DNA of 22,707 nt from a virus, in IMG/VR virus record IMGVR_UViG_3300048840_000041, positions 1-22,707 of that record. The stretch is one strand, 5' to 3'. A model generated the notes under the pieces. The model had not been told where the DNA came from. It did no database searches and was given only the letters and a program-made list of their open reading frames with translations. The translations under genes were made by a program, and so were the position numbers. Position 1 is the first letter of the stretch, and every line of letters starts with the position of its first letter. Below are positions 976 to 18,854 of the stretch, piece after piece.

Positions 976-2901
976 TTACGGCCTTGAATGTGCTGTACGT
1001 GCCATTATAAAGGTGATCGGATTATCAAGTTGCGAGTTGCTGAACTTGCGTTTATACCTGCCCTGAACATCGGTAGCTACAGTTCTTGGATACGCCTGCC
1101 ATGCCACAACTGGTACAGATACGATAATGTTATTGTCCGTTGCCAGTGTTTTGATATTAACAGTCCCATCAATATCATAATCGTCATCTATTATTGGCGT
1201 ATTGCCTGTAGCAGTGTACGCAAGGTGACATACTCTGTTCTGCGTGCCGTCCCTGTCTTCAGTACTCGCGTATACGCTGCATGTGTAATCAGTGCCGTCA
1301 TTCGTGACATTCAGGAATACATCACCGATAGAATCACAGCTAGTGTTCAGGCTCCAATTATCCGTCAATGACCAACTAGAAGAATAGAAGATATTGCCGC
1401 CGTCATTTGCTATGTATGACGATGTGCCAGGAAACAGTTTCAACTGCTCTACTCGTGATGCTGTTGCGAAATCTATACCGAAGAATATCATTGACTTACC
1501 ATCATTATCAATATAGGCCCTGTCTTCTGCCGCGCCCGTATACAACATAGGATTTTTACTGAACAACCCATTTGATGTCGGATTAGGTATATTGTTCATG
1601 GCTGTAGGATTAGTGCGGCTCCACTTCCCTGTCCATGTGTAATCATACGTCATAGGGGATGCTTGCAGTTTGAAAGTACCATCATCAGTTCCGTCATCCT
1701 GATACTTGTACAGCTTGTTCATATTCGTGCCTACGGTAGTATCACGTATGACATAATACAGTTCGTCCGTGTCTGAATCGTAGCGCATAACTCCACTGCT
1801 ATTCATAGTGGCTGTATCAAATACTTCCATTACATTACCGTCATATCGCCATGCTTTTTTCTTTGCGCTTGACGGCATCCATAGATACTTTTCTGTCGGC
1901 ACAAATCCATCAGGCTGTCCGTCAGATATTGTCCAATCAAATACACTCCCATCCTCTTTGTATAGCGCCCATGCTAGAGGATTAGTTATCGCATAAGATA
2001 GCTGAAATAACGAGTATGCGTTACCTTTCCATAAGGCTGCATTCTGTATGTTGAGTATGTATTTGGTAGCTACTGGTTCTGTCCAATTTCCAACCTCAAA
2101 TATATTCCGGTACTTCCATTTGTTTTGAGCTAGTCGCTCTAATATCGCCGTATAACTTCGATTCTTGCTGCCAGTTCCATCTATGCTTATTGGCAGATTC
2201 ACCCACATTAGAGCTAGCCCATCCTGGCCTATGTTCTTATCTACATGTACGTCATACGCAACATTAGGGCCGTCAAATACCCAAGTAGCATCTTCACCGC
2301 CGGGCTTGCTATTAGGTATCCACCAGTCTCTCGTGACGGCATCCTTAGTGCCATACCGTCCGTCCCACTTCAATATCATACTCCAGGCATTTGCAGGCAG
2401 TGGTGTATCCCAATCTATTACAGTACCATCCCATTGGCTGCCTGACCAATTGTAGTATTTGGTACTGCCGTCAACCCCGTCATAGCCGAAGTTACCCCAC
2501 ACCCACAACTTATCATCATTGAACTGGCTGCAATCTATCATGCCAGCAGCAGCGGAATCATCGTATGTCAGGCACTTGTACTTGATGTATTCGTTGTGTG
2601 ATTTGGAGAAGCTTTCAACTTCTATATTGTGATTGTCAGAAATCCCTAGTGTAGCTTTTAGCTGCCAGAAATCGCCAGGAGTAGCGTTATCTATCTTAAT
2701 ACCAACTAGTGAACTACCATCATGCCCGATAGTAATTATGTCATTCACTCGTGGCTCTGTTGCCCTGGCGTGTGTCTGTGCGTTACCGTCATAACCTGAG
2801 TAGGAGAACTGCCCTGCTATCGGATGCGTAGATGCTAACGCCGATAGATTGTTATCGGAGTCAACTTGCAACCACACAAAATCACCGTTTGATATGCCCA
2901 T
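976..2901 (-). CDS. Large tail-tip or tail-fibre protein, Trp/Asp/Gly-rich
   Basis: This 641-residue protein is rich in Trp, Tyr, Asp, Asn and Gly and looks beta-structured throughout, with no membrane segment or signal peptide. Short WxxDG and YDG elements recur irregularly (for example SQWDGT, LKWDGR, WRYDGN), as in beta-propeller or fibre-like host-contact proteins. I count 7 Asp-Gly-Thr and 3 Asp-Gly-Ser, among 20 Asp-Gly pairs in all. It is the last gene of the tail operon; its ATG overlaps the upstream stop as TAATG, implying coupled translation. Position after the tail hub suggests a tip or receptor-binding role, but no enzyme motif or known receptor-binding family can be seen. Function is inferred from position only. 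Confidence 0.75.
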   Translation of the reverse strand: MGISNGDFVWLQVDSDNNLSALASTHPIAGQFSYSGYDGNAQTHARATEPRVNDIITIGHDGSSLVGIKIDNATPGDFWQLKATLGISDNHNIEVESFSKSHNEYIKYKCLTYDDSAAAGMIDCSQFNDDKLWVWGNFGYDGVDGSTKYYNWSGSQWDGTVIDWDTPLPANAWSMILKWDGRYGTKDAVTRDWWIPNSKPGGEDATWVFDGPNVAYDVHVDKNIGQDGLALMWVNLPISIDGTGSKNRSYTAILERLAQNKWKYRNIFEVGNWTEPVATKYILNIQNAALWKGNAYSLFQLSYAITNPLAWALYKEDGSVFDWTISDGQPDGFVPTEKYLWMPSSAKKKAWRYDGNVMEVFDTATMNSSGVMRYDSDTDELYYVIRDTTVGTNMNKLYKYQDDGTDDGTFKLQASPMTYDYTWTGKWSRTNPTAMNNIPNPTSNGLFSKNPMLYTGAAEDRAYIDNDGKSMIFFGIDFATASRVEQLKLFPGTSSYIANDGGNIFYSSSWSLTDNWSLNTSCDSIGDVFLNVTNDGTDYTCSVYASTEDRDGTQNRVCHLAYTATGNTPIIDDDYDIDGTVNIKTLATDNNIIVSVPVVAWQAYPRTVATDVQGRYKRKFSNSQLDNPITFIMARTAHSRP

Positions 2902-3554
2902 TATACTTTCGCATATTTCACTGTGAACTGAGTACCGTCCTCTACGCTAGAGCCATCAGCATTGATATGTACTAATTTAACATTAAGCAATCCCGATGCG
3001 CTGGATTTCTGCTTAACCTTAGCTATACGTCCTATGTATGGATGATTCGATTCATGTGTGTATATCCCATGACTGCCATCTATCCTGGCATGACACACAA
3101 ACGGCCCAGGCGCTTTCACTAGCTTCTGTGTTCCCTCAAGGTATCCGTAGTTTCTGCCAACTAGAGGATTCAGTGCCTTAGTTCCATCCAGTAACATAGG
3201 CTTGCCCACTGCACACATAACGCTCATCTCTGTGCCGTCTGTGCTACCATCACCCGCCGCTATAGAATAGCCGCTGATGTTAATCCAAACCAGATGGCCC
3301 ACCCTATCAAGTACATGCGTGCTGCCCTCTAAGCTGCCCTCTGGATAGTATGTACCGTCTGAACCAACAGAACCGTCAAAGAAAGCAGTTGAGTTTATGT
3401 TACGTACTGGCCTGAGTAGCAACCTAGTTCCATCCCATGCAGGAGAACTACCATCAGCACCGTCATTAGGTACACATACGCCGCCGTTATTGATAGAGCC
3501 ATCACCAACGTTCTTAGCTTTCCAGATACTGAAGTTTACGTCTAGCCCTGGCAT
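2901..3554 (-). CDS. Tail-tip accessory protein with the densest Asp-Gly-Ser/Thr content
   Basis: This 217-residue beta-rich protein carries 5 Asp-Gly-Thr and 6 Asp-Gly-Ser, about one per 20 residues, plus related Glu-Gly-Ser and Glu-Gly-Thr. Both serine codon families encode them: TCT in NVGDGS and NADGS, AGC or AGT in AGDGST and GADGSS. The last third (SNHPYIGRIAKVKQKSSASG, about residues 165-185) looks like an ordinary folded beta segment. It is linked by TAATG overlaps to the hub-like protein before it and the large tip protein after it, so the three are probably made together. I do not recognise the family; a tip or baseplate-like accessory is inferred from position. Confidence 0.75.
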   Translation of the reverse strand: MPGLDVNFSIWKAKNVGDGSINNGGVCVPNDGADGSSPAWDGTRLLLRPVRNINSTAFFDGSVGSDGTYYPEGSLEGSTHVLDRVGHLVWINISGYSIAAGDGSTDGTEMSVMCAVGKPMLLDGTKALNPLVGRNYGYLEGTQKLVKAPGPFVCHARIDGSHGIYTHESNHPYIGRIAKVKQKSSASGLLNVKLVHINADGSSVEDGTQFTVKYAKV

Positions 3555-5386
3555 TATGCTTCCCCATCGAATATTCTGGCCTCTGGTGGCGTGTGGTATC
3601 CAGTCTTCATACGCGCCTTGCGAGTCTGGTACGCTGTCCTATCTCTCAGTATATTAAGCCGTGCATGTTGTGATAAAGTTGACAAGTCAGTTTCTATTCC
3701 CCATGCAACTAGCGTCTGCGGTATCTCATTAGCGCCCATGCTGAATTTTACTTGTGAAATCTTGCCGTCTGGCTTCCACTGCCTCTTGATTCCAGGATAC
3801 ACATACACCACCGGATTGCCAGTAGTGCCGTCTGATCCGTCCCAGAATTGGCGCTCTCTCTCTCTGGCAGCACTCAGGCACTTCTTGTTCCATTCTGCCG
3901 TACCGTCTGCCCTGTCTAAATCTAGCCGCTTGACTATATCAACTACGTTTGTTTTTCCCTTAGCAAGCCCTTGACGATTCTTCCAGGTGTAGGTATATAC
4001 TCTGCTGTAGTTGCTAGGAGATACACCGATATTAGCTCGAATCTTCAGGCTCCTGGCCGTCTGCATTTTGCCACTACTTGAGAACTGCACAACAGGCATT
4101 CCAAACTTCACTAGCCCTAGTTGTTTGTCAATCTGAAATGATGCCTCAACTCTGTGCTGTGCGCCTGTGTTGTTGCTGTTCTTAACCATGAACTCTGAGT
4201 CTGCTACTCTGTGCGGCCCGATTACATACGGCCTGCGCTTCATCTCCATTCCGTCTACTTTTATGGACTCTTTCAAGAATGGATTCCAGCGCCTAATATA
4301 GTCTGCTCTTGTTCCGTCCTCTTCATTGCTATCATCACCACCAGTCAGTAGTTTGATTGATTCAGGTAGCCGATACCATCTGCACCATGAATCAGAGAAT
4401 GCTTTTGCTGCTTTAAGTTTAGTCGTGCCGTCTGCTAGATTCTGTGCGCTTGCGCCAGGTACTAATAGCTTTTCAGCCTCCATCTTCAGCCGGTTGCCGG
4501 TTGACTCGTTAAACCCGCCCTTGTCCTTATCGAAGTAACTGACTGAGCTACCATCTACATCGTTATCTTCATACAGAGTACCATCAGTATCAAGTATAAC
4601 TGGTGTCAATGCAAACGTACCATCAACGTTGTTGCTGGTTACTACATAGATGCTCTTAGGTGGATCAATGACGCGTTTGGTAACGACCTTAGACAGATAG
4701 TCCGTGTCCTGCTGTGTGCCATCAGTAACGCCAATAGGCCACACATCTATGGTGCCGTCATAATCCAGTGTGATACGTAGCCCGTACTCACCCAGGATGT
4801 TCATCATATGCTCACCGGGATACTCACCAATAGCCTCTATGTATGGCCGAGCGAACGTTGTACCATCTCCATAAGTGCCATCGTCTTTAGGCTTAGGAAA
4901 TGGCGCACGCAGATTCAATATCTTAGTAGTGCCGTCTATGCTCATTGCTGACGCTAGCGCTCTAACAAGTTGATTAAGCGGCATAGTGCGCCCGGTAACA
5001 TCCGTACCGTCTGATGTCATAGGCCACAGATTGCCCTTGTCATCTCTGACATTGCGCTCAATTATCAGTCCGTCATGTTTATTCCAGACCCATCTTCCAT
5101 CACGTATCTGCACCTGTGCGTCATGGCTGGATGTGTCTGAGGTAGGCACCACTTGAGTGAGTCGGCAATTAGAGATTACCAGTGGTGTGTTCTGGCCGTC
5201 ATCGAATGTGACTGAACCATCTTCAGGCACTAACTCAGTATCGCTAGCCGCAATATTCATAAATATCAAGCCAGGATCTATACCGTCCGTGACAGTATAG
5301 CTACCGGATATGCCGCGCACTACTAGCACACTTCCATCTGATTCTCTGGTGCCTTCAAATTGCAGGAATGCCGTACCGTCTGCCAT
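3554..5386 (-). CDS. Tail hub-like / minor tail protein
   Basis: This protein of about 610 residues probably contributes the central tail hub or tip. It follows the tape measure and distal tail gene, where hub proteins are found. A segment near residues 90-110 (RDGRWVWNKHDGLIIERNV) and the following LVRALASAM helix match the layout I know from hub-like minor tail proteins (an R-x-W-x-W strand, then a short domain selecting a helical pair). I count 13 Asp-Gly-Thr and 4 Asp-Gly-Ser, spread over the whole length. The start at 5386 is preferred because GGGG lies about 8 nt upstream and it follows the previous TAG by 2 nt. A start at 5416 would add ten residues inside the upstream gene. No peptidase or lysozyme motif is visible. 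Confidence 0.65.
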   Translation of the reverse strand: MADGTAFLQFEGTRESDGSVLVVRGISGSYTVTDGIDPGLIFMNIAASDTELVPEDGSVTFDDGQNTPLVISNCRLTQVVPTSDTSSHDAQVQIRDGRWVWNKHDGLIIERNVRDDKGNLWPMTSDGTDVTGRTMPLNQLVRALASAMSIDGTTKILNLRAPFPKPKDDGTYGDGTTFARPYIEAIGEYPGEHMMNILGEYGLRITLDYDGTIDVWPIGVTDGTQQDTDYLSKVVTKRVIDPPKSIYVVTSNNVDGTFALTPVILDTDGTLYEDNDVDGSSVSYFDKDKGGFNESTGNRLKMEAEKLLVPGASAQNLADGTTKLKAAKAFSDSWCRWYRLPESIKLLTGGDDSNEEDGTRADYIRRWNPFLKESIKVDGMEMKRRPYVIGPHRVADSEFMVKNSNNTGAQHRVEASFQIDKQLGLVKFGMPVVQFSSSGKMQTARSLKIRANIGVSPSNYSRVYTYTWKNRQGLAKGKTNVVDIVKRLDLDRADGTAEWNKKCLSAARERERQFWDGSDGTTGNPVVYVYPGIKRQWKPDGKISQVKFSMGANEIPQTLVAWGIETDLSTLSQHARLNILRDRTAYQTRKARMKTGYHTPPEARIFDGEA

Positions 5387-5388
5387 TA

Positions 5389-6183
5389 CTATACCCCATA
5401 TGCCGAACCATCCCATACGCCAGGATATACATACGTGCCATCATTCATTGCTGATGTGCTGATGAATGAATAGTTCCATGTCGCCGCATATCCCTCATGC
5501 CGTAATACTGTACCATCAGGACTATAATGCTCAGTAGGACTAGTAGCACTGTACCTGTAATCCTCATTAATCAAACTCGTACCGTTAGGTGTTACAGCAA
5601 ATCCAGGAGCAACTACATAACTATTCTTGCCTACTGAACTGCCAGTCTGAGTCAGGTGGTAGTGCGTCTGGTCTGCCGTTCTAAATGACTGCGGTGCGCC
5701 GTTCACAACTACAGCATGTTGATAGATAGGTAACCCACCCCACATCTCAGTAGTCTCAGTCCATGCAGTTACAGCATCAGTACCATCAGGATCAACATCG
5801 TAGTCTGCTGTCACAGTGATAGAGTATGTTCTAACACCGTTGTCTGCAAACTCTGGCCCGTTGCCCGTAGGATATCCCGGCTCCGCTGTTACTTTCGTAC
5901 CTGTTTTAGTAGCTGATGATACTATCTCGAATGCCTTAGTTGAATTGTCAGGATACTTCAGAGTAAAATCCTGGCCGTCCTTTGCGAAAGCTGCCTCAAG
6001 ATTAGTTATAGCCGTGTTGAATGCTGTCTTATCCGCGCATATCAATTGCCCTGTTACGTTACAGGTTACCGTTCTGGTGCTTTTCTGTCCTCTGGCTGAA
6101 TAGTTCTGCGTCTTATCTATCGTTACTACTGGTTCGCCAGGAGTGAATGAGAACGTGCCGTAATGTAATACCATGCCTGCCAT
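5389..6183 (-). CDS. Distal tail-like structural protein
   Basis: This 264-residue beta-rich protein begins MAGMVLHYGTFSFTPGEPVV and sits directly after the tape measure gene, the normal place of the distal tail (Dit-like) or first minor tail protein. The N-terminal half (about residues 10-130) reads as alternating strands ending in TYSITVTADYDVD, typical of a tail-tube-like fold. The C-terminal half is Thr/Ser/Tyr-rich and may be a carbohydrate-binding or outer domain. It holds 3 Asp-Gly-Thr and 1 Asp-Gly-Ser, all in the C-terminal half. The start has GGGG about 8 nt upstream and lies one base from the tape measure stop. Assignment is by position and fold impression. Confidence 0.6.
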   Translation of the reverse strand: MAGMVLHYGTFSFTPGEPVVTIDKTQNYSARGQKSTRTVTCNVTGQLICADKTAFNTAITNLEAAFAKDGQDFTLKYPDNSTKAFEIVSSATKTGTKVTAEPGYPTGNGPEFADNGVRTYSITVTADYDVDPDGTDAVTAWTETTEMWGGLPIYQHAVVVNGAPQSFRTADQTHYHLTQTGSSVGKNSYVVAPGFAVTPNGTSLINEDYRYSATSPTEHYSPDGTVLRHEGYAATWNYSFISTSAMNDGTYVYPGVWDGSAYGV

Positions 6184-9242: not shown

Positions 9243-10082
9243 CTAGCTAGTTACTGAATATGTACCATCAGCCGTCAGTGAATAAGTCAATTGTGCCGTG
9301 GCTTCGTTAGCGCTTCTTAGTTCTCGTGCAAGAAATACCAGGTTAATCGGCGATAGAAATAGATGCTGCTCTTCAATCGCTCTGCTGTCAAATGTCTCTG
9401 AGTCGCCTACATCACTGCACCATACATCAGTAAGAGTTGTCAGCCTATGTCCTGAGAATAGCCGTATCAATTGCCGCCTCATCATCAGTTCATTAGCTCC
9501 ACGTAGTCCTGTAGTTCTCTCGCAGATATAGCAAGTAACGTTGTAGGTGAATGTGTCCACCTGTGACATCTGATTATCTGGATTGTTGCTGCCTGGAAAT
9601 ACCTTGATAATCGTGGTGTCTACATCGTCAAAGTTTGGCGGCCATTCCTTTTCAGCCGTCACCAGCGTGCCGTCATAGTTAGTCAGGCTGGCGTCATTAA
9701 TCATCGACACTACAGCGTCAAGTATCCTGTCCAGGAGTGTACTGGTGCCTACTGTGGCATACCCCCTAATGCCGCCGTTGCATGATGTATTGCCGTCACT
9801 GTTTAAGCTCTCAACCTTAAACCAGTATGAGCCTGCATCTATATTAAACGATCCTGTACCATCGCTTACTCTTGAATCGCCGGTCAACCAATTTCCAGTA
9901 GGTGATGACCTATATTTGATTGTGTTAGTTGTACCGGCTGTTGATCCTGTAATCGCGTAATTCACGCCGCTTGTAGCGTTCGCCAAGTCAGTGATAGTAA
10001 ATGCTGGCACTGCTGGTATTGCTCCAGTGCTAGCGCTGCCTGTCAGTAGTCCGAAGCTAGATAACGCTCTAAGGTCACCCAT
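9243..10082 (-). CDS. Tail terminator-like protein with an N-terminal Ig/FN3-like domain
   Basis: Two parts are visible in 279 residues. Residues about 20-110 read as an Ig- or FN3-like module: PAVPAFTITDLANATSGVNY, a TNTIKYRSSPTGNWL strand pair, then AGSYWFKVESLNSDGNTS. Residues about 115-265 resemble tail terminator or minor tail (gpU-like) proteins: a helix LLDRILDAVVSMINDA, a strand FTYNVTCYICER, a helix NELMMRRQLIRLFSGHR. Position directly before the tail tube gene fits a terminator. The TAATG overlap at 10082 couples it to the upstream gene. An Ig-like module fused in front of a terminator is uncommon; such modules usually decorate the virion surface. Domain names are from pattern recognition only. 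Confidence 0.6.
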   Translation of the reverse strand: MGDLRALSSFGLLTGSASTGAIPAVPAFTITDLANATSGVNYAITGSTAGTTNTIKYRSSPTGNWLTGDSRVSDGTGSFNIDAGSYWFKVESLNSDGNTSCNGGIRGYATVGTSTLLDRILDAVVSMINDASLTNYDGTLVTAEKEWPPNFDDVDTTIIKVFPGSNNPDNQMSQVDTFTYNVTCYICERTTGLRGANELMMRRQLIRLFSGHRLTTLTDVWCSDVGDSETFDSRAIEEQHLFLSPINLVFLARELRSANEATAQLTYSLTADGTYSVTS

Positions 10083-10681
10083 TAGCTTACCGTCCTAGTG
10101 CCTGTGGTTCCAGGTAGTGCCGCTGTCCACAGAGCCGTACCATCAATGTTGTTGAATGTAAGATTGGTACCGTCACCACTAACAGCGTTGACAAGAGCCG
10201 CATGTACTTTCGTGGCGTGTTCTTCGTATGTCTCAGTACCGTCAAATGTGTCTGTAGCAGGAGCGTAGGTAGAGAATCCAGTTGCTTTATACTGGCTGAA
10301 TCCACTCACTGTAGTGCCGTCATTCTTGGTTACGTTTGCATTGGTGCCGTCTGTGAATCTGTTCTCTATACTGAACTCTGCAATAGTAGCATTCACAGCA
10401 GCGCTATCTATAGTGCCGTCCTCTAGGATTACTTGGTAGTCTGATCCAGTAGAATAGAATGCGCTTGATCCTGCCTTTATGGTGCAGTGGTGAACTCCGA
10501 CAATGCCGTTGAAGTCCTTGCTGTCAGTTACGCCTGCATTAGTGCCGTCAGTGCCATCGTCTTTATAGACGTTAATAGTTCCATCAGTAGAACGAGTTAC
10601 AGAAGCGCCATTGCTATCAACCGTGTTCCAGGAGAAATACAGTGTGCCGTCTTCTGCTAAATCGCCTCTATATATGCCCAT
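10082..10681 (-). CDS. Phage appendage protein with an upper-baseplate/fibre-type N-terminal domain
   Basis: This 199-residue protein starts MGIYRGDLAEDGTLYFSWNT, a form I associate with small beta-sandwich phage proteins of the YRGD(I/L)AED...SVYKDN...FSIENRF type found near tail or fibre genes. The family landmarks VYKDDGT (about 39), GVTDSKDF (about 50), GVHHCTI and FSIENRF (about 108) are all present. It has 10 Asp-Gly-Thr, one per 20 residues. At family-conserved places the length seems unchanged: the usual KDNSTTQSTAGVT (from memory) is here KDDGTDGTNAGVT, so the motif replaces residues rather than being inserted. TAATG overlaps link it to both neighbours. Surface appendage is the best guess. 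Confidence 0.65.
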   Translation of the reverse strand: MGIYRGDLAEDGTLYFSWNTVDSNGASVTRSTDGTINVYKDDGTDGTNAGVTDSKDFNGIVGVHHCTIKAGSSAFYSTGSDYQVILEDGTIDSAAVNATIAEFSIENRFTDGTNANVTKNDGTTVSGFSQYKATGFSTYAPATDTFDGTETYEEHATKVHAALVNAVSGDGTNLTFNNIDGTALWTAALPGTTGTRTVS

Positions 10682-11616
10682 TATTGAACCTTTCCGTAGA
10701 ACTTACTATTTCCGCCACTAGCAGCAGCACCAAATGAAATCCCCTCGCTACATCCTATGCTTGGTGGATTAGCTCGTGTCTGTCCGTCTATGTCTAGAGT
10801 AATACCGCCCACAGCAACACCCTGGCCGACCAGAGCCGAGCTAGTGTGTATGCGCCAGTCCAGCGGGAAGAAGTCGTTGGCGTTGTCTAGCATGGGCTTT
10901 ATGTTTGCATCAGTTTCGTTTATTCTGTTGTTCGCGCCAGTGGACCAATTACCATCACCGGCAGTCGCGTCACCTGTAGAGTTGTTGTAGCCAGTCGCGC
11001 TCGCAATGGCAAAAACTCCAGCCGTTTGGTTCTGTACGCAAAGATTATTGCTTGCCGTACTCGCACCAAAAAGTAGAATTCCAAACCCGGTAGATACGCA
11101 TGTATTGAAATACGCCTCTATTGCCACATAAGCCCATATTGATACATACTGTCCAACGCAATGACAGTTTGAAATCTTGAACGCCCCATCTCCGGCTTGA
11201 AAAGTAATAGCTGATCCGCCGGTATAAAATCTACATCTGTCAATATGTATTCCTGCTCCGCCTCCTGTTGTGTCGTTCCACAACACCGCAGGGTTAGAGG
11301 AGTAGCTCAAGAATGTGATATTCTGTACCACAAGTTGCGTGGATATTCCTGACAGGTTCCCGCTAAAGCTGAGATGTGAATAGTTCCCCCCACTCGCTTG
11401 AGATATCGTCACCTGATTACTTGGGAGCATTCCTTCCAGTGAGAACCCTGCCGTTCCAGCAAAACGCTCAAACCAGAAACGTCTTTTGCTGGCATTGGAG
11501 TAGTACATTTGGATGTTGTTTGATCCGTCTACTCCGGCTGCCGTTATCGCAGTTGCAAGCGTTGTATACGTCTTTGCTGTTCCTGCCGCATCATACCCAC
11601 AAGAAATGTTAGCCAT
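10681..11616 (-). CDS. Right-handed beta-helix appendage protein
   Basis: This 311-residue protein reads as a parallel beta-helix or pectin-lyase-like fold: short repeating rungs with stacked Asn, Ile, Val and Cys, such as VVQNITFLSYSSN, IHIDRCRFYTGG, KISNCHCVGQY, EAYFNTCVSTGFGILLFG and NNLCVQNQT. It ends with a PLDWRIHTSSALVGQG segment, a form common at the end of such beta-helix proteins in phages and bacteria. Tail spikes and depolymerases use this fold, but I see no clear catalytic residues. It has only one Asp-Gly-Ser although it is beta-rich, which sets it apart from its neighbours and hints at a later-acquired host-range module. Overlaps by TAATG with the gene upstream and downstream. 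Confidence 0.72.
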   Translation of the reverse strand: MANISCGYDAAGTAKTYTTLATAITAAGVDGSNNIQMYYSNASKRRFWFERFAGTAGFSLEGMLPSNQVTISQASGGNYSHLSFSGNLSGISTQLVVQNITFLSYSSNPAVLWNDTTGGGAGIHIDRCRFYTGGSAITFQAGDGAFKISNCHCVGQYVSIWAYVAIEAYFNTCVSTGFGILLFGASTASNNLCVQNQTAGVFAIASATGYNNSTGDATAGDGNWSTGANNRINETDANIKPMLDNANDFFPLDWRIHTSSALVGQGVAVGGITLDIDGQTRANPPSIGCSEGISFGAAASGGNSKFYGKVQ

Positions 11617-11927
11617 TATTTTACCGCCAATTCTTTTAGCACCGAATAGTTGCGTGCCTTCAGAAACTCAACCGCTTCAGTCTCACTTGTAATCTGGATT
11701 AGCGATGTCCGTTTCCACGCGAGGTCAATCTCTTCCTTTGGAACATCGACAGGAACTTTCGCGTTGACCCGTATCTGCTCCGGTGGATTAAACGGGTCAA
11801 CTTCCTCAGTTAGCGCAAGCTCAAATACTTCCAACTCGTGCTTGCTCCATGGCCGTGTAGTCGCGCAGTCCTGTTCAGACTTCGCCACGATGAACTTGCC
11901 GTCTTTTAGTAGGCATTCAAACTTCAT
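11616..11927 (-). CDS. Hypothetical 103-residue acidic protein
   Basis: The protein begins MKFECLLKDGKFIVAKSEQD and has a C-terminal helix SETEAVEFLKARNYSVLKEL. There is no signal peptide or membrane segment. Position directly before the beta-helix gene, with TAATG coupling, suggests a chaperone or small partner for the appendage, as phage fibre genes often have, though here it is upstream rather than downstream. The ATG at 11927 overlaps the CxxC gene by 11 nt and has GAGA about 5 nt upstream. Family not recognised. Confidence 0.65.
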   Translation of the reverse strand: MKFECLLKDGKFIVAKSEQDCATTRPWSKHELEVFELALTEEVDPFNPPEQIRVNAKVPVDVPKEEIDLAWKRTSLIQITSETEAVEFLKARNYSVLKELAVK

Positions 11928-12084
11928 TTTTCTCTATCCGCTCCCGTATCTTCTTCTCTGCACAATGTTGACAGATAGTGTCTGTCTCTCTCAGCCCTAG
12001 CCACAACAACCTGCTGCGCTGCGTATGCAAATAGACTGGTATTCCTGGCTTTTTTGGATAGCAGAAATCACAGTCTTTTCCCAT
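11917..12084 (-). CDS. 55-residue CxxC...CxxC protein
   Basis: The protein starts MGKDCDFCYPKKPGIPVYLH and ends with a basic helix CAEKKIRERIEKNEV. CDFC (residues 5-8) and CQHC (about 38-41) form a likely four-cysteine zinc site. ATG at 12084 lies inside the previous 25-codon gene in another frame, and the stop overlaps the next gene by 11 nt. The upstream ribosome site is weak, so it probably relies on coupling. Small treble-clef-like proteins of this kind are common and mostly unexplained in phages. Confidence rests on the paired cysteines and dense packing. Confidence 0.6.
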   Translation of the reverse strand: MGKDCDFCYPKKPGIPVYLHTQRSRLLWLGLRETDTICQHCAEKKIRERIEKNEV

Positions 12085-12145
12085 TCATCAGGTAACCTAT
12101 GACAATTAACAGCAGTCCGAAGAATAGCACCACAATAAGCTGCAT
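12068..12145 (-). CDS. 25-residue single-span membrane peptide
   Basis: It reads MQLIVVLFFGLLLIVIGYLM plus a short basic tail NGKRL. The first 20 residues form one hydrophobic membrane span with a positive C-terminal end. Its ATG overlaps the stop of the preceding gene as TAATG. Within a lysis-type block it could help holin function or be a small regulator of lysis; this is an inference from position. Such a short frame could be chance, but the clean hydrophobic span and the overlap at both ends argue for a real gene. Confidence 0.5.
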   Translation of the reverse strand: MQLIVVLFFGLLLIVIGYLMNGKRL

Positions 12146-12366
12146 TATTTCGGCTTGCTGGTGCTTATTAGATACATGTGTAAGTCACGCACATTGTCGT
12201 CAATTCTGCGAAGCGTCACGGCTTGCGATTCCTGCCGCTTCTCGATTGCAACAACCCTATCTATACTTGCGGAGTTGTACGTAGCGTGTGTAGCAATACC
12301 AGCAAGGCACATCAGCAACAGTCCTACTATAATCTGCTTCATCATTACGCTATCCCTAGTTGTCAT
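12145..12366 (-). CDS. Small membrane-anchored coiled-coil protein (inner-spanin-like)
   Basis: The 73-residue reading has one N-terminal membrane segment (IIVGLLLMCLAGIATHA, about residues 12-28) followed by a charged helix (ASIDRVVAIEKRQESQAVTL, then RRIDDNVRDLHMYLI). This is the shape of an inner-membrane spanin: an anchor plus a periplasmic coiled coil. The ATG at 12366 overlaps the lipoprotein stop as ATGA; an ATG seven codons later (12345) has AGGGAT upstream and is an alternative start. Spanins act with an outer-membrane lipoprotein to fuse the two membranes at lysis, and the gene just upstream is a lipoprotein. It is shorter than most inner spanins, so the role is tentative. Confidence 0.6.
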   Translation of the reverse strand: MTTRDSVMMKQIIVGLLLMCLAGIATHATYNSASIDRVVAIEKRQESQAVTLRRIDDNVRDLHMYLISTSKPK

Positions 12367-12584
12367 TTGCTTGCTCCACCATCAGATAGGCAGTACCAGC
12401 CCTCTTTGAGTGTCAACTTTCCTGCTACTGGTTTGCCGTTGCTATCCTTTACCCATATCTTCACATTAGGCACATCCTGGCGCAACCTCACAGGAGTACC
12501 ATCAGGCACATAAAGAGTGCGTATAAAACAGCCGCTACTTGCTAGCGCTAATACTATCACGCAAACGCTTTTCAAGACTGCCAT
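12363..12584 (-). CDS. Small phage lipoprotein (possible outer spanin)
   Basis: The start at 12584 is chosen because AAGAGG lies 9 nt upstream. It gives a 73-residue protein with a compact signal peptide MAVLKSVCVIVLALASSGC and a lipobox ending at Cys19. The mature part, about 55 residues, runs TLYVPDGTPVRLRQDVPNVK followed by WVKDSNGKPVAG and a EGWY strand near the end. I remember this VPDGTPVRLR...VWVKD...EGWY form as a recurring small phage lipoprotein of unproved function. It would be anchored in the outer membrane. It overlaps the 49-residue gene by 50 nt and the next gene by ATGA. Outer-spanin role is inferred from context. Confidence 0.7.
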   Translation of the reverse strand: MAVLKSVCVIVLALASSGCFIRTLYVPDGTPVRLRQDVPNVKIWVKDSNGKPVAGKLTLKEGWYCLSDGGASK

Positions 12585-12684
12585 CACGTTGAGCCTCTTC
12601 ACAGGTATCATTCGCCTTTTCGATTATTACAGGTATCAGCGCTTGCAGTAGTAGCTTAACAATAGCCAATATTACCTGTATCAT
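12535..12684 (-). CDS. 49-residue membrane peptide overlapping the lipoprotein gene
   Basis: The peptide starts MIQVILAIVKLLLQALIPVI, a hydrophobic N-terminal helix, and ends in a highly charged tail (EKANDTCEEAQRDGSLEKRL and a short rest). The ATG at 12684 overlaps the holin-like gene stop as ATGA. Its last 50 nt are shared with the start of the lipoprotein gene in another frame. I recall similar short peptides next to the same lipoprotein type in other phages. It could be a holin partner, antiholin or spanin component; the sequence does not decide. It contains one Asp-Gly-Ser. Confidence 0.65.
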   Translation of the reverse strand: MIQVILAIVKLLLQALIPVIIEKANDTCEEAQRDGSLEKRLRDSISASK

Positions 12685-12950
12685 TTCTCTGCACCTACTT
12701 TTACGCTTGTTCTGCTGTTGATATAGCCGAGCTTCACAACAGTTTCCTTGAACAGTGCCAGCCCCGCCACTACAGCGCCTACGATAATGCCAGTAGTTGC
12801 CTCAGTGCCAAGTGCTTGAGCTACCGAGCTGCCGATAGTAATCAGCAATCCGATAATCTGCACAACAAGCGCCCAACGTCCTGAACCTTGCGCCTCTTTG
12901 TATTCAGTGGTATCTACTCCGGGCTTCATTGGATCTTCTTTAGCTGCCAT
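12681..12950 (-). CDS. Holin-like protein with two membrane segments
   Basis: This 89-residue protein has a polar N-terminus of about 25 residues, a first membrane segment WALVVQIIGLLITIGSSVAQ (about 26-46), a second TGIIVGAVVAGLALF (about 53-67) and a basic C-terminal tail. This matches the size and layout of class II-type holins, which make holes in the inner membrane at lysis. It heads a block of small membrane and lipoprotein genes, which supports the role. GGGAG lies about 8 nt before the ATG. No endolysin gene is visible in the window, so the cell-wall enzyme must be encoded elsewhere. Confidence 0.68.
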   Translation of the reverse strand: MAAKEDPMKPGVDTTEYKEAQGSGRWALVVQIIGLLITIGSSVAQALGTEATTGIIVGAVVAGLALFKETVVKLGYINSRTSVKVGAEK

Positions 12951-12961
12951 GTCTTTTCTCC

Positions 12962-13534
12962 CTATTTGTTAGTATGCTCGTACCATTCCATAGCCAAACT
13001 TGTAGGCTTGGCTGAACCAGCAATATTAGATACCTGGAGCAGTACAATCTGATTCTGCTCCATTATCCATTCGTCACGCACCTCAGCACCACCACCACTA
13101 GCGTTGCCACCTGTGCCACCTGGAACAATCTTACAGTCTAAAACAGTTCCATCGTCTGTCACGGTTACACCAGTCTTTACTGTTACGGTTGAGGCAGTTG
13201 CGCTATTCATGTTTTTGTTTATTGGAGTGAATGAAGAACCGCCACTAGTTGTAGGATTCTTGGTAAGCCTCACAACAGCATTGCCACCACAAGAGGCATC
13301 CCATATCATGTGCCCCCACTTAGTAGTGTTAGGAGTAGTAACCATAATATTAAGAGTACCATCATCAGCTAGTAACTGGTCGCAAACTGGAACCTTAAAT
13401 GTAGAGCCTGCGTGTATTTCATGGTGCGCATAGTCTACCGTATTAGTAGCGTTTGTGGTTGAGTCTAGTGTTGGCGTTTTGCCGTTAGTATCAACCGGCA
13501 TTATGATTTCTTTACCGTTGATAGTAGTAGTCAT
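12962..13534 (-). CDS. Phage structural protein of the conserved WYEHT C-terminal type
   Basis: The protein has 190 residues. The stretch DYAHHEIHAGSTFKV (about residues 34-48), the middle SSFTPINKNMNSATASTVTV with a long Thr-rich strand, the RDEWIMEQNQIVLLQVSN strand and the C-terminal MEWYEHT match a family I know from siphophages (EIHEG...SG...TPIN-N-R-S...LL--T---YLF--TN...W-EHT). Members lie in late regions and are believed to be virion proteins, possibly capsid decoration; the exact role is not established. Two Asp-Gly-Thr occur. TAATG overlap with the gene upstream. It closes the head module just before the holin-like gene. Confidence 0.65.
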   Translation of the reverse strand: MTTTINGKEIIMPVDTNGKTPTLDSTTNATNTVDYAHHEIHAGSTFKVPVCDQLLADDGTLNIMVTTPNTTKWGHMIWDASCGGNAVVRLTKNPTTSGGSSFTPINKNMNSATASTVTVKTGVTVTDDGTVLDCKIVPGGTGGNASGGGAEVRDEWIMEQNQIVLLQVSNIAGSAKPTSLAMEWYEHTNK

Positions 13535-13917
13535 TAGAATAATGTCCTGTAAGCGATTTCAAGGCCCCAATTAAGTCCACCAGCATTTTGGAAGCTACCA
13601 TCTAAATCTGATTCTGCTTTCAGTGGAAACGGTTTTGTAGGTGTCCATGTGTTGTCTGCTATGCCGCTCATATCCTGAGTGTGAACTACAACATCATAGC
13701 TAGTACCGTCTGATGAATTCTCTTTAAGAAAGAAGTTCTGCGAAGTTGCGCTAGTACCGTCTAGGTGTAACTTAGCGCTGATAACCTCTACCTTGATTAG
13801 CTTTGTCGCGCTTCTACCTGTTGCACCAAGGATTGTATTAAGGCTAGTTTGTAGTGCAGTACCACCACCTTTAGCCTGTGCGAATTGAACCGCTGAATAT
13901 GGATAATCAGTTGACAT
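13534..13917 (-). CDS. Hypothetical beta-rich structural protein, 127 residues
   Basis: After a short helix (TALQTSLNTILGATG, about 19-33) the protein is all strands: KLIKVEVISAKLHLDGTSAT, YDVVVHTQDMSG, WTPTKPFPLKAES, then GGLNWGLEIAYRTLF at the C-terminus. This is the style of small decoration proteins or fibre-base domains that occur in pairs with the WYEHT protein that follows. A very strong ribosome site, GGAGG 8 nt before the ATG, suggests high output and hence a virion component. Two Asp-Gly-Thr and one Asp-Gly-Ser. No named family recognised. Confidence 0.62.
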   Translation of the reverse strand: MSTDYPYSAVQFAQAKGGGTALQTSLNTILGATGRSATKLIKVEVISAKLHLDGTSATSQNFFLKENSSDGTSYDVVVHTQDMSGIADNTWTPTKPFPLKAESDLDGSFQNAGGLNWGLEIAYRTLF

Positions 13918-13918
13918 T

Positions 13919-14428
13919 CTAAAAGCCTCCTTTGTCCAGTTCTTTCATTACTCTGTCAGCTAGTATGTTTACAATGTTCTTCATATCCATTCCGTTCAAT
14001 CCGAAATGCTCTCTAGCTGGTACGTCTTCAAATCCTTCTTGCTGTCTCTTAGCGCCTACCCAGACTGTGCCGGTTTGAAATGCTCTCCCGTTGTCGTATA
14101 CATCAATTATTCTACCCTTGCCTCTGGTAGATTGAGCCATGTGCCGAGCCAACTTACTTACCTTTGCGCGTTTCAGCGCTGGCTTGGATACTGTTCTCCT
14201 CGCTCTCTTGACATTCCGTCTACGTCTACCTCTTGCCGGTGCTGCTACTTTAGCCCTTTGCCACGGTTCGCCTGTGGGACTCATATGCAGTTGAAATCGT
14301 GTCTTCGTCTGCTTGTTAATGTATGAGTTGACTTGCCTCCATGGGTAGAACGTTCTGCCAGGGCTGGTTAATACTCGCATCCATTTCTTAGTCAGCCGTT
14401 GGAATTGCTGAGGAGTTAACTCAGCCAT
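13919..14428 (-). CDS. Phage virion morphogenesis / tail completion protein (gpG Mu / gpS P2-like)
   Basis: The 169-residue protein starts MAELTPQQFQRLTKKWMRVL. Landmarks of the virion morphogenesis family are visible: an N-terminal helical part, then RFQLHMSPTGEPWQRAK (about residues 40-56, the family's F---PDG-PW element), a highly basic middle (RGRRRRNVKRARR, 67-79), and near the end VPAREHFGLNGMDMKNIVNIL, matching the family's PAR-FLG--- helix. In Mu and P2 these proteins help finish or join the tail to the head. Here it lies in the head-tail connector block, coupled by TAATG to the gene before. It has no Asp-Gly-Thr. Confidence 0.75.
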   Translation of the reverse strand: MAELTPQQFQRLTKKWMRVLTSPGRTFYPWRQVNSYINKQTKTRFQLHMSPTGEPWQRAKVAAPARGRRRRNVKRARRTVSKPALKRAKVSKLARHMAQSTRGKGRIIDVYDNGRAFQTGTVWVGAKRQQEGFEDVPAREHFGLNGMDMKNIVNILADRVMKELDKGGF

Positions 14429-14778
14429 TAGATGTCAGCTTTCTGCATGGTGATATTATACATTGTCCCATCACCGTCTAGCTCATGGCTTACATAGTCG
14501 TAGTAGTCCGTTCCGTCTGTCAGAATATCCTTGCGCTTAGGCACTAATGCAGTTCCATCAGATACCAAATCACCAGCACGTATGAACCACATTGCGTCCA
14601 TGCTACGCACCCATACGCCTTGATCCTCATATTGGGCTTGCGTTCGATTCTTCGTTGCGTTTAGTGTTACTGTGCCGTCACCAAATGACCTATAGGATAC
14701 TGAGCTGCCCCATTGCAGAATACCAGTGCTGGCAATAATCGCACCATCCACAATACTGAGCAAGTCATTCCATGCCAT
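14428..14778 (-). CDS. Probable head-tail connector protein
   Basis: This 116-residue protein has an N-terminal helix (WNDLLSIVDGAIIASTG) and a beta part (SVSYRSFGDGTVTL, SMDAMWFIRAGDLV, DYYDYVSHELDGDGTMYNIT). The order, following capsid genes and preceding the tail completion protein, and the closing YYDYV...MYNITMQ strands suit a gpFII/gp7-like connector that caps the portal complex. Four Asp-Gly-Thr fall in predicted turns. The ATG at 14778 follows a hairpin in the intergenic gap. Family assignment is by position and size only. Confidence 0.55.
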   Translation of the reverse strand: MAWNDLLSIVDGAIIASTGILQWGSSVSYRSFGDGTVTLNATKNRTQAQYEDQGVWVRSMDAMWFIRAGDLVSDGTALVPKRKDILTDGTDYYDYVSHELDGDGTMYNITMQKADI

Positions 14779-14798
14779 AAGTCACCTATATATGTAGC

Positions 14799-14828
14799 TG
14801 GCCGGTTGCCATATGCGACAACCGGCCA
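14799..14828 (-). other. Perfect 10-bp hairpin between cement and connector genes
   Basis: TGGCCGGTTG (14799-14808) and CAACCGGCCA (14819-14828) form a perfect GC-rich stem with a 10-nt loop. Outer GTAGC (14794-14798) and GCTAC (14837-14841) can also pair. On the minus strand no U-run follows, so it is more likely a processing or stabilising element, or a weak terminator that lowers connector output relative to capsid, than a full terminator. Confidence 0.6.
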
Positions 14829-14837
14829 ATTACAAAG

Positions 14838-15332
14838 CTACGCATTATTCAGAATCTGGTTGTTTTCCAACGTGGTCAAAAGACTGTTGAACTTCGTCAC
14901 AAGGTCAGCAAGAGTTCCATCGCCGTTAGCAATGGTGTCAGAACGTCCGAGAACGTTCAGAAGCACTCTGCCAGTATCAACCGCTGTACCATCAGCATCT
15001 ACCGCACGGCCAAGAGGGTATCCGTTGGCTGGTGCCTGAGTAGTCGTGGTAGCAGCGCCGCCAGTCGTACCATCAACACCAGTACCGTCTTTATCCCAGA
15101 ACACTTGATCGCCAGCAGCAAAAGCGGTTGAGTCCTTACGAACCCAGAACACGCCAGATACATCACAGCCGCCTGCCTGCGTACCGTCTGAATCAACCGT
15201 CAAGCGGTTAATAACAACACCGGCACGCAAATCGCCAATCTGCACCACCGTACCGGCATTAACAGTTGCGGCAGGCGTATAGGTCATCGTAACGCCGTCT
15301 TTATCAGTTCTTGCTTGTGATCCAAGAGCCAT
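14838..15332 (-). CDS. DUF2190-type capsid cement / decoration protein
   Basis: The 164-residue protein lies right after the capsid gene, as DUF2190 proteins do. It has the family's features: MTYTPAATVNAGTVVQIGDL, RAGVVINRLTV, GVFWVRKDSTAFAAGDQVFW with WDKDG, then NGYPLGRAVDADGTAV and RVLLNVL. The C-terminal LADLVTKFNSLLTTLENNQI is an added helix that may make trimers. Such proteins are thought to cover capsid surfaces. GGAGG 9 nt before the ATG is consistent with high copy number. Five Asp-Gly-Thr, including KDGTGVDGT, lie in surface loops. Confidence 0.78.
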   Translation of the reverse strand: MALGSQARTDKDGVTMTYTPAATVNAGTVVQIGDLRAGVVINRLTVDSDGTQAGGCDVSGVFWVRKDSTAFAAGDQVFWDKDGTGVDGTTGGAATTTTQAPANGYPLGRAVDADGTAVDTGRVLLNVLGRSDTIANGDGTLADLVTKFNSLLTTLENNQILNNA

Positions 15333-15375: not shown

Positions 15376-16827
15376 TTACGCGGTATTCTTGTTGACTCCA
15401 CGCCAATCAAGGGCCTTCGCATTAAGGTCAAAACGTACACGAGTAGTAAAGCCAAATACGTTCAAGCCTTCGCGCTCAGTCTCAATAGTAGGAGTCTGAA
15501 CACCGTTCAAGAAGCCAAGCTCAATGGTATCGTTAATCGCTGGATTAGCTGATACGTACCAAGTGGAAGAGCTACTCGCCTCAAGCTGCCGTGATACAAC
15601 AGGAATCAGCGCACCAGCAACAGGATTCTTCTCGCCAAGTGGAGTAGTAAGCGCTGCTACGGTTCTGTCACTTGACAGGATACGTACTGCTGTGTCCCAA
15701 AGAGTAGTAGGAACAATAACATACTTCGGGTCCATCTCGATGTAATCGCCAGCCTTGTTAGTCTGCTTCATCATTGCCGTCATAGCTACACCAACAGTAG
15801 CGATAGTCAGAGCCGAGCCAGTCTGCAAGTTGGCATGATTAGCATGATACAAAGCAACCGCATCACTCATTGCTGCGTTATCAGTCATGATGCCGTATAC
15901 AAGCTGGTCAATTAGTGCCTTTGCACGCCCGCCAAGTTTACGCGGTATGACAGAGAGAAGGTCAAGGTTATCATTCACGATATCCATCTCTTCCAAAGTC
16001 ACCTTCTTAGCATAACGGACGATCTTGTAGCTTTCCTTGGTATCAGAGATATCGCCGTGAGTAACTTCATTGCCGTACTCAACAGCACTAAGGCTTACAT
16101 TGTCATCAAGCCGCACTCGCTCGTTAACCTTGTAGTCCGTAGGCGAAGTGATGTTGCAAAGCTGCATTGAAGTTGACTCAATAGAGTTAAAGCCCTTCAT
16201 GGCCGCTTTAGTCGCTACGTTGTTAATGATGTTAGGCATGATTGCTGTAGAGAAAGCAGCACGAACCATAGAACTTTCGTTCATAGGAACTGCACGCCCT
16301 TCAGTCTTAAGCGCAAATTCTGCCACATCAACAAGCCGCGTTTTACGCATTGACTGGCCGAGTGCCGTCTGCTCCGCGGTCATGTCGTGGTTCGTCTCGC
16401 CGCCACATCGTACCATGAGGTGTGCAGAAAGAGCATCAATCCTCTTGGTCTGATCTTCCATACCCATTTCAATCCGTACGCCTGCACCTTCAGACTGCAA
16501 CTTAGCAATCAGAGCCGCTTGCGCCTGCTCTACTGTCATGTTCTTAGCAATGACTTCAGCACGCAATTCTGCATTGTCACCACCGAACAGAGCATTGATT
16601 TTCTTCTCAGTGTCCATGGCTTCAAGCTTCGCTTGCAGTTTAGTAATCGCCTTTGACTCAGCGCTCTCTTCTGCTGGCTTTTCAGGAGCCGGTACAACTT
16701 CAGTCGTGCCGTCATCTTCTGCTGCGGCAATCTCAGCATCATACATAGCTTTCAGACTCTTAGTCTGTGACTCACTAAGGTCATCAACATTGAATCCCTT
16801 AGCTTCTACCCATTTTGCAAATTTCAT
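15376..16827 (-). CDS. Nested internal product: scaffold - major capsid protein
   Basis: Inside the fusion ORF, Met192 (ATG at 16827) is preceded by a perfect GGAGG (16835-16839 on the plus strand as cctcc) at 7-nt spacing, the best ribosome site in the head module. Translation from here gives 483 residues starting MKFAKWVEAKGFNVDDLSES, that is the delta/scaffold region plus capsid without protease. Phages with nested scaffold genes (lambda C/Nu3) use the same trick. This would supply the many capsid subunits with only a few protease-fused chains. No experimental support; based on sequence position and strength of the site. Confidence 0.7.
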   Translation of the reverse strand: MKFAKWVEAKGFNVDDLSESQTKSLKAMYDAEIAAAEDDGTTEVVPAPEKPAEESAESKAITKLQAKLEAMDTEKKINALFGGDNAELRAEVIAKNMTVEQAQAALIAKLQSEGAGVRIEMGMEDQTKRIDALSAHLMVRCGGETNHDMTAEQTALGQSMRKTRLVDVAEFALKTEGRAVPMNESSMVRAAFSTAIMPNIINNVATKAAMKGFNSIESTSMQLCNITSPTDYKVNERVRLDDNVSLSAVEYGNEVTHGDISDTKESYKIVRYAKKVTLEEMDIVNDNLDLLSVIPRKLGGRAKALIDQLVYGIMTDNAAMSDAVALYHANHANLQTGSALTIATVGVAMTAMMKQTNKAGDYIEMDPKYVIVPTTLWDTAVRILSSDRTVAALTTPLGEKNPVAGALIPVVSRQLEASSSSTWYVSANPAINDTIELGFLNGVQTPTIETEREGLNVFGFTTRVRFDLNAKALDWRGVNKNTA

Positions 16828-17400
16828 ATCAGTTCCTCCGTTAGAAAATTCTGCTGATACTTCAGCGCTGGTGGAGCCATCTGCTCCGAGTGGCACGAAA
16901 GATGTCTCATTCAAAACCGACTTATCTATAATTGACACAGGGCCGACAACCTTTTGCCCATTAACTTCCTTGCTGTCGCCTTCGCTGAGTTCAATGATTC
17001 TTACTGGTGTAGCTCCAAGGCTAGCCTGCCAAGGGAAACCGTTCTTGCCGCTTTCGGTTACTTCTCTTGACGCATCACTTGAGCCTGAAATAACACCCTC
17101 TACATTCAGGCTGCTGCCGCTGATTACTGGCGTGCCATGCCCTACAATACGGCTTGTGTCGTGGTGCTGTAGTACAGGCATCGGTCCCTTAGGTAGCTTC
17201 ATACCAGCCAGATTAACTACAATATTGCCATAGTAGCCAACAGACATCATGCCGCCGTTGTAGGCGTTAATCCTGAACGTAGGTAAAGCGCTCTCTTCTC
17301 CTGCTGCCGCTTCGATGAATTGTATGTCAGCAGTTGCGTAGAACATCTTATTAGACTTAGCGGCTGCTTTAATCTTGTGCTTCTTCTGCTTCCTTGTCAT
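15376..17400 (-). CDS. Prohead protease - scaffold - major capsid fusion protein
   Basis: The 674-residue ORF joins three parts. Residues 20-170 look like an HK97-type prohead protease: MPVLQHHDTSRIVGHGTPVI with His79/His80 and Asp81, then FPWQASLGATP with Ser127 as the likely nucleophile. Residues about 192-330 are a charged helical delta/scaffold region (ESAESKAITKLQAKLEAMDT). Residues about 335-674 are the HK97-fold capsid: MVRAAFSTAIMPNIINNV, VRYAKKVTLEEMDIVND, DPKYVIVPTTLWDTAV, and a closing GLNVFGFTTRVRFDL. Protease and capsid in one ORF is known in some phages. The Asp-Gly motifs occur only in the linkers (GADGS, EDDGT). The start at 17400 follows the portal stop after 2 nt. Confidence 0.85.
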   Translation of the reverse strand: MTRKQKKHKIKAAAKSNKMFYATADIQFIEAAAGEESALPTFRINAYNGGMMSVGYYGNIVVNLAGMKLPKGPMPVLQHHDTSRIVGHGTPVISGSSLNVEGVISGSSDASREVTESGKNGFPWQASLGATPVRIIELSEGDSKEVNGQKVVGPVSIIDKSVLNETSFVPLGADGSTSAEVSAEFSNGGTDMKFAKWVEAKGFNVDDLSESQTKSLKAMYDAEIAAAEDDGTTEVVPAPEKPAEESAESKAITKLQAKLEAMDTEKKINALFGGDNAELRAEVIAKNMTVEQAQAALIAKLQSEGAGVRIEMGMEDQTKRIDALSAHLMVRCGGETNHDMTAEQTALGQSMRKTRLVDVAEFALKTEGRAVPMNESSMVRAAFSTAIMPNIINNVATKAAMKGFNSIESTSMQLCNITSPTDYKVNERVRLDDNVSLSAVEYGNEVTHGDISDTKESYKIVRYAKKVTLEEMDIVNDNLDLLSVIPRKLGGRAKALIDQLVYGIMTDNAAMSDAVALYHANHANLQTGSALTIATVGVAMTAMMKQTNKAGDYIEMDPKYVIVPTTLWDTAVRILSSDRTVAALTTPLGEKNPVAGALIPVVSRQLEASSSSTWYVSANPAINDTIELGFLNGVQTPTIETEREGLNVFGFTTRVRFDLNAKALDWRGVNKNTA
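16827..16840 (-). promoter_or_regulatory. Strong internal ribosome site within the protease-capsid ORF
   Basis: On the minus strand ACGGAGGAACTGATATG: a five-base GGAGG core, 7-nt spacing, ATG. It falls exactly at the boundary between the protease domain and the scaffold-like region. The surrounding codons (SNGGTD) do not look constrained as protein, which supports selection for the RNA signal. Confidence 0.7.
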
Positions 17401-17402
17401 GG

Positions 17403-18854
17403 CTAGCCCTCTGCTACCTGTAGACGGATTATCTTTGCTCTGTTCTCAGCCTGTGTTGCTTGCTGCTCTGGTGTCGATTCTTCAAGAGTCAATTTCAGTA
17501 AGTCCATTTTCTTCTTCTCAATTGCTCTCTGCTCGAATTCTTTCTCCCAATCCTTGCCCTGAGCCGCATACACGTTCTTGTACGTGGTAGTCATACTGGT
17601 GAGTGCTTCAGTGGTTGCTAGAGCTTCCTTAAGCGGATCTACATGCTCAAACTGGTCCCACATCCATTCATGACTTAGCGTTTCAGGACTAGACACGGTG
17701 GTGAATATCCCGGCTGCTCGTGCCTGTATGAACCACTTATTGAAGATTACGTTTAGTAGCTCACGCTCTATCCACTCCTGCGATACCTCAACCGCCTTAA
17801 AGTACATCTGATGGTCAAGTCTGCCTGATGCGTAGTTGTAGTCTGAGCTATCAGCAGCAGCTATGTTGTATGGCATGTTCAAGCAGCGTGCTATCTCGTT
17901 TAGTATCTCACGCTTAAACTCTTTGTATGTGTCCGTAGGCTGCTCCGCTTTCATCTGCTTGGCTTCCCAGCCCTTTGGAGTAGTCATCATCATGCCGCGC
18001 TCAATATCGAATACATCCATCGCTTCTGGATCGTCTTCGGTCGCCATATTTCCGGCTTGTGATTGCAGAATAACGGCATAGTCAGCAGCGGTTTCGGCGG
18101 CACCGATTACGGCTAGAGTGTAGCGTCTGAGATATGCGAATAGCGGTATGGCAGGAGTAATCCAAGGCACGCCTCTTGACTGCCCCGGCCTGTCCTTGCG
18201 ATAGAGATGCACCATTCTATCTGCCGGTATTCGCTCAAAGTCCATGTTAAATACTGGCGATTGCGGATTGACGCTGCCCTTCTTGGCTATGTGGTAGGCA
18301 ATAGGCACGCCGTTGTCATCGTACTCAACGCCCATGCTGATGTTTGATGTGTTTGTGTTAGGTAGCCATGGAGTGTCGAGTCTGTTAGGATCTATCAGAG
18401 CCGGAAATAGCTTGACCTTACCTGGCAATGACTGATTAGTATTCATCAGCACAAGAGCCTCACCATCACCGCACTGCTCTTTAACTGCTATTTGCAGAGT
18501 ACGTACTAAGTCAACCTGAGTCATCCAGTTGCTAAACTCGCGCTCTGCCAGTCCATTCAATCCCTCGCTAGCCGTAGTCATCTGGAGCCGTGGTCCAGTG
18601 CCGATGATATCGTTTGACATTGTTTCTACGATACCCTCAGCGTATGAGTTATTACGGATTTCGTGGTTAGCTCTTTCTCTCAGAGTAGGTAGGTCAGTAA
18701 TGATTACTTCATCAGCGCTGACATCAGCAGCGTTCTTAAAGGCGTTCTTGATGAATCTGGTGCTACCGGCAGCGTCATATCCACCGGCCATGATTTGCCA
18801 TGTGCGTTTGAATGTAGTCTTTACTCGCGCAACAACACCCAATTTCTTAGCCAT
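17403..18854 (-). CDS. Portal protein (lambda gpB-type)
   Basis: The 483-residue protein forms the dodecameric ring at the capsid vertex through which DNA passes. Family landmarks: RERANHEIRNNSYAEGIVET (about residues 59-78, the start of the portal clip), DIIGTGPRLQM, NRLDTPWLPNTNTSNISMGV with GVEYDDNGVPIAYHI (about 178-192), then RKDRPGQSRGVPWITPAIP and the long helices LNEIARCLNMPYNIAAADSS and YNYASGRLDHQMYFKAVEVS near 330-375. The lambda-family N-terminal basic segment is present. Start ATG at 18854 overlaps the stop of the gpW-like gene as TAATG. No Asp-Gly-Thr or Asp-Gly-Ser motif at all. Confidence 0.88.
   Translation of the reverse strand: MAKKLGVVARVKTTFKRTWQIMAGGYDAAGSTRFIKNAFKNAADVSADEVIITDLPTLRERANHEIRNNSYAEGIVETMSNDIIGTGPRLQMTTASEGLNGLAEREFSNWMTQVDLVRTLQIAVKEQCGDGEALVLMNTNQSLPGKVKLFPALIDPNRLDTPWLPNTNTSNISMGVEYDDNGVPIAYHIAKKGSVNPQSPVFNMDFERIPADRMVHLYRKDRPGQSRGVPWITPAIPLFAYLRRYTLAVIGAAETAADYAVILQSQAGNMATEDDPEAMDVFDIERGMMMTTPKGWEAKQMKAEQPTDTYKEFKREILNEIARCLNMPYNIAAADSSDYNYASGRLDHQMYFKAVEVSQEWIERELLNVIFNKWFIQARAAGIFTTVSSPETLSHEWMWDQFEHVDPLKEALATTEALTSMTTTYKNVYAAQGKDWEKEFEQRAIEKKKMDLLKLTLEESTPEQQATQAENRAKIIRLQVAEG

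Follow-up and report, generated by a model that had tools for sequence, protein, structure and literature searches.

Nested starts in phage protease and scaffold genes are already known from Mu and lambda. The Mu annotation places the start of gene Z within gene I, with gene T directly after it; the Z start, acaggagaacaaacccATG, carries AGGAG and opens a product with the N-terminus MNETLRKLLARLG. Nested protease-scaffold products are also made from herpesvirus UL26/UL26.5. An internal start of the Mu I/Z kind has been proposed at Val177 of PaMx73 gene 27 (PMC4378225). Genes in which a protease and a capsid protein are fused are known in MD8 (PMC8508860) and in Paracoccus prophages (PMC6536676), and the literature also describes them in actinophages. 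An internal start goes unmentioned in the MD8 paper (PMC8508860), and in the open-licence literature we found no report of one that yields the capsid precursor in the fused family.

Anatomy of the fusion gene and its internal start signal

The window, by which we mean the whole 22,707-nucleotide stretch of viral DNA that was analysed (positions 1 to 22,707 of IMG/VR record IMGVR_UViG_3300048840_000041), contains recognisable phage head and tail genes, all of them minus-strand and arranged as terminase, portal, fusion gene, cement protein and tail genes; the features described below are on the same strand. The fusion gene (15376–17400; PHROG 4523) encodes a full-length product of 674 aa in which a protease, a scaffold and a capsid protein are joined. 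NCBIfam NF045541 (prohead protease/MCP fusion) matches aa 71–673 with E=1.6e-88, at a score of 298 bits that is under the curated cut-off of 525.

A Pfam search with the N-terminus of the fusion was without match. In the AlphaFold2 model of the full protein this part forms a beta-barrel with its strands at aa 41–182 (16855–17280), and the predicted fold resembles both herpesvirus assemblin (the top five Foldseek matches have E values of 4e-4 to 8e-4) and HK97-type prohead proteases (E down to 4e-20). His80 and Ser127 of this predicted prohead protease domain are invariant columns among the relatives. Psychrobacter phage Y8A encodes a separate Mu-I-like protease that shares 32–35% identity with the N-terminus of the fusion and matches the fusion protease domain strongly (hhalign E 4e-25); the Mu I protease domain itself gave no hhalign match to that domain. 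The stand-alone Y8A gene (L006:2899-3831) has an AAGGAG and, past the protease domain at codon 189, a GTG in frame; the Y8A capsid is of a different kind.

The barrel is followed by a disordered linker at aa 184–191 (16828–16851; pLDDT <50) and by a helical, delta-like scaffold region at aa 194–346 (16363–16821), whose first predicted helix begins at aa 194. The remainder, from about aa 375 to 674 (15379–16278), is an HK97-fold major capsid domain. It is recognised by PF25209 (E=2.8e-37) and by the Mu-like gpT family PF10124, its C-terminus being of the Phage_capsid_4/gpT-like type, and it matches the HK97 capsid and encapsulins in Foldseek and Mu gpT in hhalign (probability 96%, E 1.3e-9).

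The first-pass annotation had pointed to a GGAGG with 7-nt spacing to an in-frame ATG, standing between the protease and scaffold regions, and both the signal and its placement are exactly as described. The GGAGG Shine-Dalgarno (SD) sequence (16835–16839) lies in the linker, and GGAGG-N7-ATG spans 16839–16825. The ATG (16825–16827) is codon 192 and is preceded by cGGAGGaactgat; the surrounding minus-strand sequence is tttctaacGGAGGaactgatATGAAATTTGCAAAATGG, and the N-terminus from this codon would be MKFAKWVEAK. In the AlphaFold2 model Met192 sits where the unstructured linker ends, ahead of the first scaffold helix. The nested reading frame runs on through the capsid part to 15376, such that the predicted short product of 483 aa (15376–16827) includes the capsid protein; its designation as a putative capsid precursor draws on conservation of the start and on a stand-alone homologue with a matching Met, described below.

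Taken alone, the window sequence gives no significance to this signal, since GGAGG-N7-ATG occurs once against 0.99 expected by chance from shuffles, and GGAGG-N4-9-ATG five times against 4.96 expected. It is only through comparison with relatives that the internal site exceeds chance.

Several other virion proteins of the window (976–6183 and 10082–15332, minus strand) are far richer in Asp-Gly-Thr/Ser tripeptides than expected, with 17 against 0.7 at 3554–5416, 11 against 0.3 at 2901–3554, and 10 against 0.5 at 10082–10681. The tripeptides are spelled with mixed codons. The terminase and portal have none, and one copy in the cement protein (SDGT) is an insertion relative to its homologues.

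Conservation of the internal start among relatives

A scan of viral-contig proteins with the window sequence as sole query returned no relatives and an alignment query was needed, with which 80 viral-contig relatives were found; a further 80 loci were taken from bacterial genomes, mostly of Planctomycetota and Lentisphaerota. Relatives were retrieved by protein patterns and tblastn, a procedure blind to the SD. Protease and capsid HMMs recognised 154 fusion ORFs among the viral contigs, bacterial loci and annotated records, and these form 63 clusters at a 60% identity cut-off, covering Planctomycetota, Lentisphaerota, Pseudomonadota and environmental phages. The junction was searched from -5 to +60 codons relative to the end of the protease.

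The check that the first-pass annotation had proposed, whether related fusion genes conserve the SD, gave a clear answer: an ATG with an SD of at least 4 nt is present at the junction in 62 of the 63 clusters, and one with at least 5 nt in 46. Codon permutation gives 2.9 clusters at the latter threshold, and equal windows placed in the capsid part 0.8. The signal was similarly frequent (43/44, with at least 4 nt) in an earlier set of 44 clusters in which ClpP-type fusions were included. When the first ATG after the protease is picked regardless of SD, it has an SD of at least 5 nt in 39/63 clusters versus 7/581 for downstream in-frame ATGs (p=1e-38). The internal Met often opens a signature such as M-x-F-x-x-W-L-x-A-x-G, with the F present in 20 and the W in 22 of the 63 clusters. 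The conserved start signal in relatives thus supports the reading of a nested capsid gene within the fusion.

The junction ATG with SD is absent from 12 of the 154 fusion ORFs. Two of these (L126 and L160) have AAGGAG with GTG instead, and in about seven, which belong to a Rhodopirellula-type lineage, the fusion persists and no site is recognisable. Loss of the site from a retained fusion, the observation named beforehand as counting against a nested gene, is seen in only about 10 of 154 ORFs, mainly in that one prophage lineage. The Rhodopirellula-type prophages without internal ATG and SD are L133, L145, L149, L156, L161, L165 and L167. Most loci of this type have a conserved AACGCAAGTTTGAA before an ATG without SD, and another initiation signal may be in use there.

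A different arrangement is seen in genome G058 (loci L178 and L202), where the protease ORF closes with a stop codon and the capsid ORF follows in a different frame. The order in L178 is the protease stop, then AGGGAGAGG-aac-ATG, then the capsid protein N-terminus MHPKLRAFLVANGL, and this start Met aligns with the internal Met of the fused genes L177 (MNKELRAYLEKLGL) and L200. There is some chance that the split reflects a sequence error breaking a fused gene. Apparent natural splits into protease and scaffold-capsid ORFs occur at approximately the same boundary in L178/L202, L085 and L002; L085 and L002 have no good SD there, and L002, though split, continues to carry a fusion-protein annotation. 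L067 also reads as split and may instead contain a frameshift, and the apparent split gene of contig L121 is a frame-broken copy. Other candidates for split members were set aside: L180, L182 and L183 are stand-alone capsid genes so distant that their start could not be placed, and Bordetella phage BPP-1, considered for its known capsid N-terminus, has an uncleaved capsid protein of the separate-gene type.

Two predicted products and the alternatives

We consider it highly probable that the one reading frame gives two proteins, a protease-scaffold-capsid form that co-assembles with a shell-building scaffold-capsid form, and that the gene derives from a Mu-like I/Z-T block that became fused with the Z start kept. 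Translation from 17400 would give the long form of 674 aa. We infer that initiation at the internal GGAGG/ATG (16827) gives the 483 aa form, which would serve as the shell-building precursor in the manner of HK97 gp5 with its delta domain. Both products share the scaffold and capsid parts, so co-assembly is possible, and the long form would join the assembly through them. A few protease domains would thereby be enclosed in the prohead, where they would later remove the protease and scaffold by cleavage, and the two initiation rates would set how many proteases each head receives. A plausible origin is that the Z stop codon of the ancestral block was lost, so that Z, its start retained, became continuous with the capsid protein.

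That the short form is the bulk product by virtue of its initiation rate, as proposed in the first-pass annotation, is plausible within the window. The duplex with the anti-SD is -9.5 kcal/mol for the internal site versus -6.3 for the main start, where a weak GAGG (17408–17411) is situated just ahead of the portal stop codon. Among the window starts examined, GGAGG or better precedes only three, namely the internal start, that of the cement protein (15332) and that of the gene at 13917. A stronger internal site across the family was tested and is unsupported, as the values there are -7.9 for the internal and -8.0 kcal/mol for the main site; the two are equally strong and do not by themselves fix the product ratio.

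This family-wide equality would also fit a use of the internal start for a minor scaffold-capsid form or for assembly tuning, with the full-length protein as the major product, and the main start adjoins the portal stop, such that translational coupling is possible. We regard this as unlikely, given the clearly stronger internal site and weak main site of the window and the minor share of the protease among prohead components in HK97-like and Mu-like phages.

It is less likely still that only the full-length protein is made, with each capsid subunit bearing a self-removing protease and the GGAGG-ATG arising as a by-product of the amino acids of the linker. Papers on MD8-like and Paracoccus phages regard the fusion as a single product, and the signal does lie partly at the amino-acid level, as synonymous codon shuffling of the same genes still gives a mean of 23.6 of 63 clusters (maximum 30 in 100 shuffles), to be set against the 46 observed. 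However, synonymous codon choice at the site is biased: Lys/Gln-Glu pairs are spelled xAGGAG in 24/26 cases at the site versus 62/187 elsewhere in the genes (p=6e-9). Among the clusters the SD is found in every reading phase (43/16/3) and encodes KE, QE, GG, VE and others, which argues that nucleotides rather than amino acids are kept. Local RNA structure is also weaker, with a folding energy for the 50 nt around the ATG of -8.0 versus -13.8 kcal/mol (p=7e-12), and hardly any such sites are present elsewhere in the genes. The least probable account is that the internal site is an unused relic of a once-separate capsid gene, for although split forms exist from which it could be inherited, an unselected motif of 5–7 nt with correct spacing would be gone at about 30% protein identity, and the site is retained in nearly all clusters.

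Relationship to known systems

The two-product reading may extend further. We lean towards the view that in all protease-capsid fusion phages, whatever the type of protease, the capsid protein is separately initiated at a kept internal start, and that a ribosome site derived from a Mu-type I/Z ancestor stays in place as genes switch between the fused and the split state. If this is true, protease-capsid 'fusion proteins' are systematically mis-annotated two-product genes. The two-product reading itself would explain how a phage with a single gene may avoid having a protease on each of several hundred capsid subunits, and would show where the capsid precursor probably begins in a large family annotated as one product. 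It would likewise tie the nested scaffold genes of the Mu type to capsid proteins of the HK97 type with a built-in scaffold. A pair of in-frame ribosome sites offers a clean testable case of how a protein ratio is set, for which the laboratory phages mEp460 and Fels-1 are suited.

Among the described systems, the NF045541/NF045540 fusions (MD8, F10, mEp460 and RcMeacham) have the same domain order as the window protein and are probably of the same family; they differ in that their records are annotated with one product and in that the window protein scores under the family cut-off. The junction SD and ATG are also present in F10, mEp460, Fels-1 and RcMeacham, the SD being weak (4 nt) in mEp460 and Fels-1. 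HK97 gp4/gp5 shares the protease fold, the HK97 capsid fold and a scaffold that is an N-terminal extension of the capsid protein, but its protease and capsid protein are encoded by two separate genes. Herpesvirus UL26/UL26.5 shares the assemblin-type protease fold, whereas a separate transcript is used in herpesviruses, and the capsid gene is likewise separate.

The first-pass annotation had regarded the locus as a variation on lambda C/Nu3. The nested in-frame start is indeed common to both, and in the lambda annotation it gives a scaffold without the protease; however, lambda has an S49 protease and a separate capsid gene, E, and it is Mu I/Z, not lambda, that offers the closest parallel. 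In Mu, as in the window gene, an in-frame internal start with an SD is situated past the protease domain. The Mu Z N-terminus, MNETLRKLLARLG, is close to the internal N-termini MNERLRKFLESRGL and MNERLRKYLESRGL of fusion genes, and the Mu Z start region pairs with the M192 region of the window protein in a weak alignment (hhalign E 0.19). Mu differs in that its short product is scaffold only, with T a separate gene overlapping the Z stop codon, whereas the predicted short product of the window gene comprises both scaffold and capsid.
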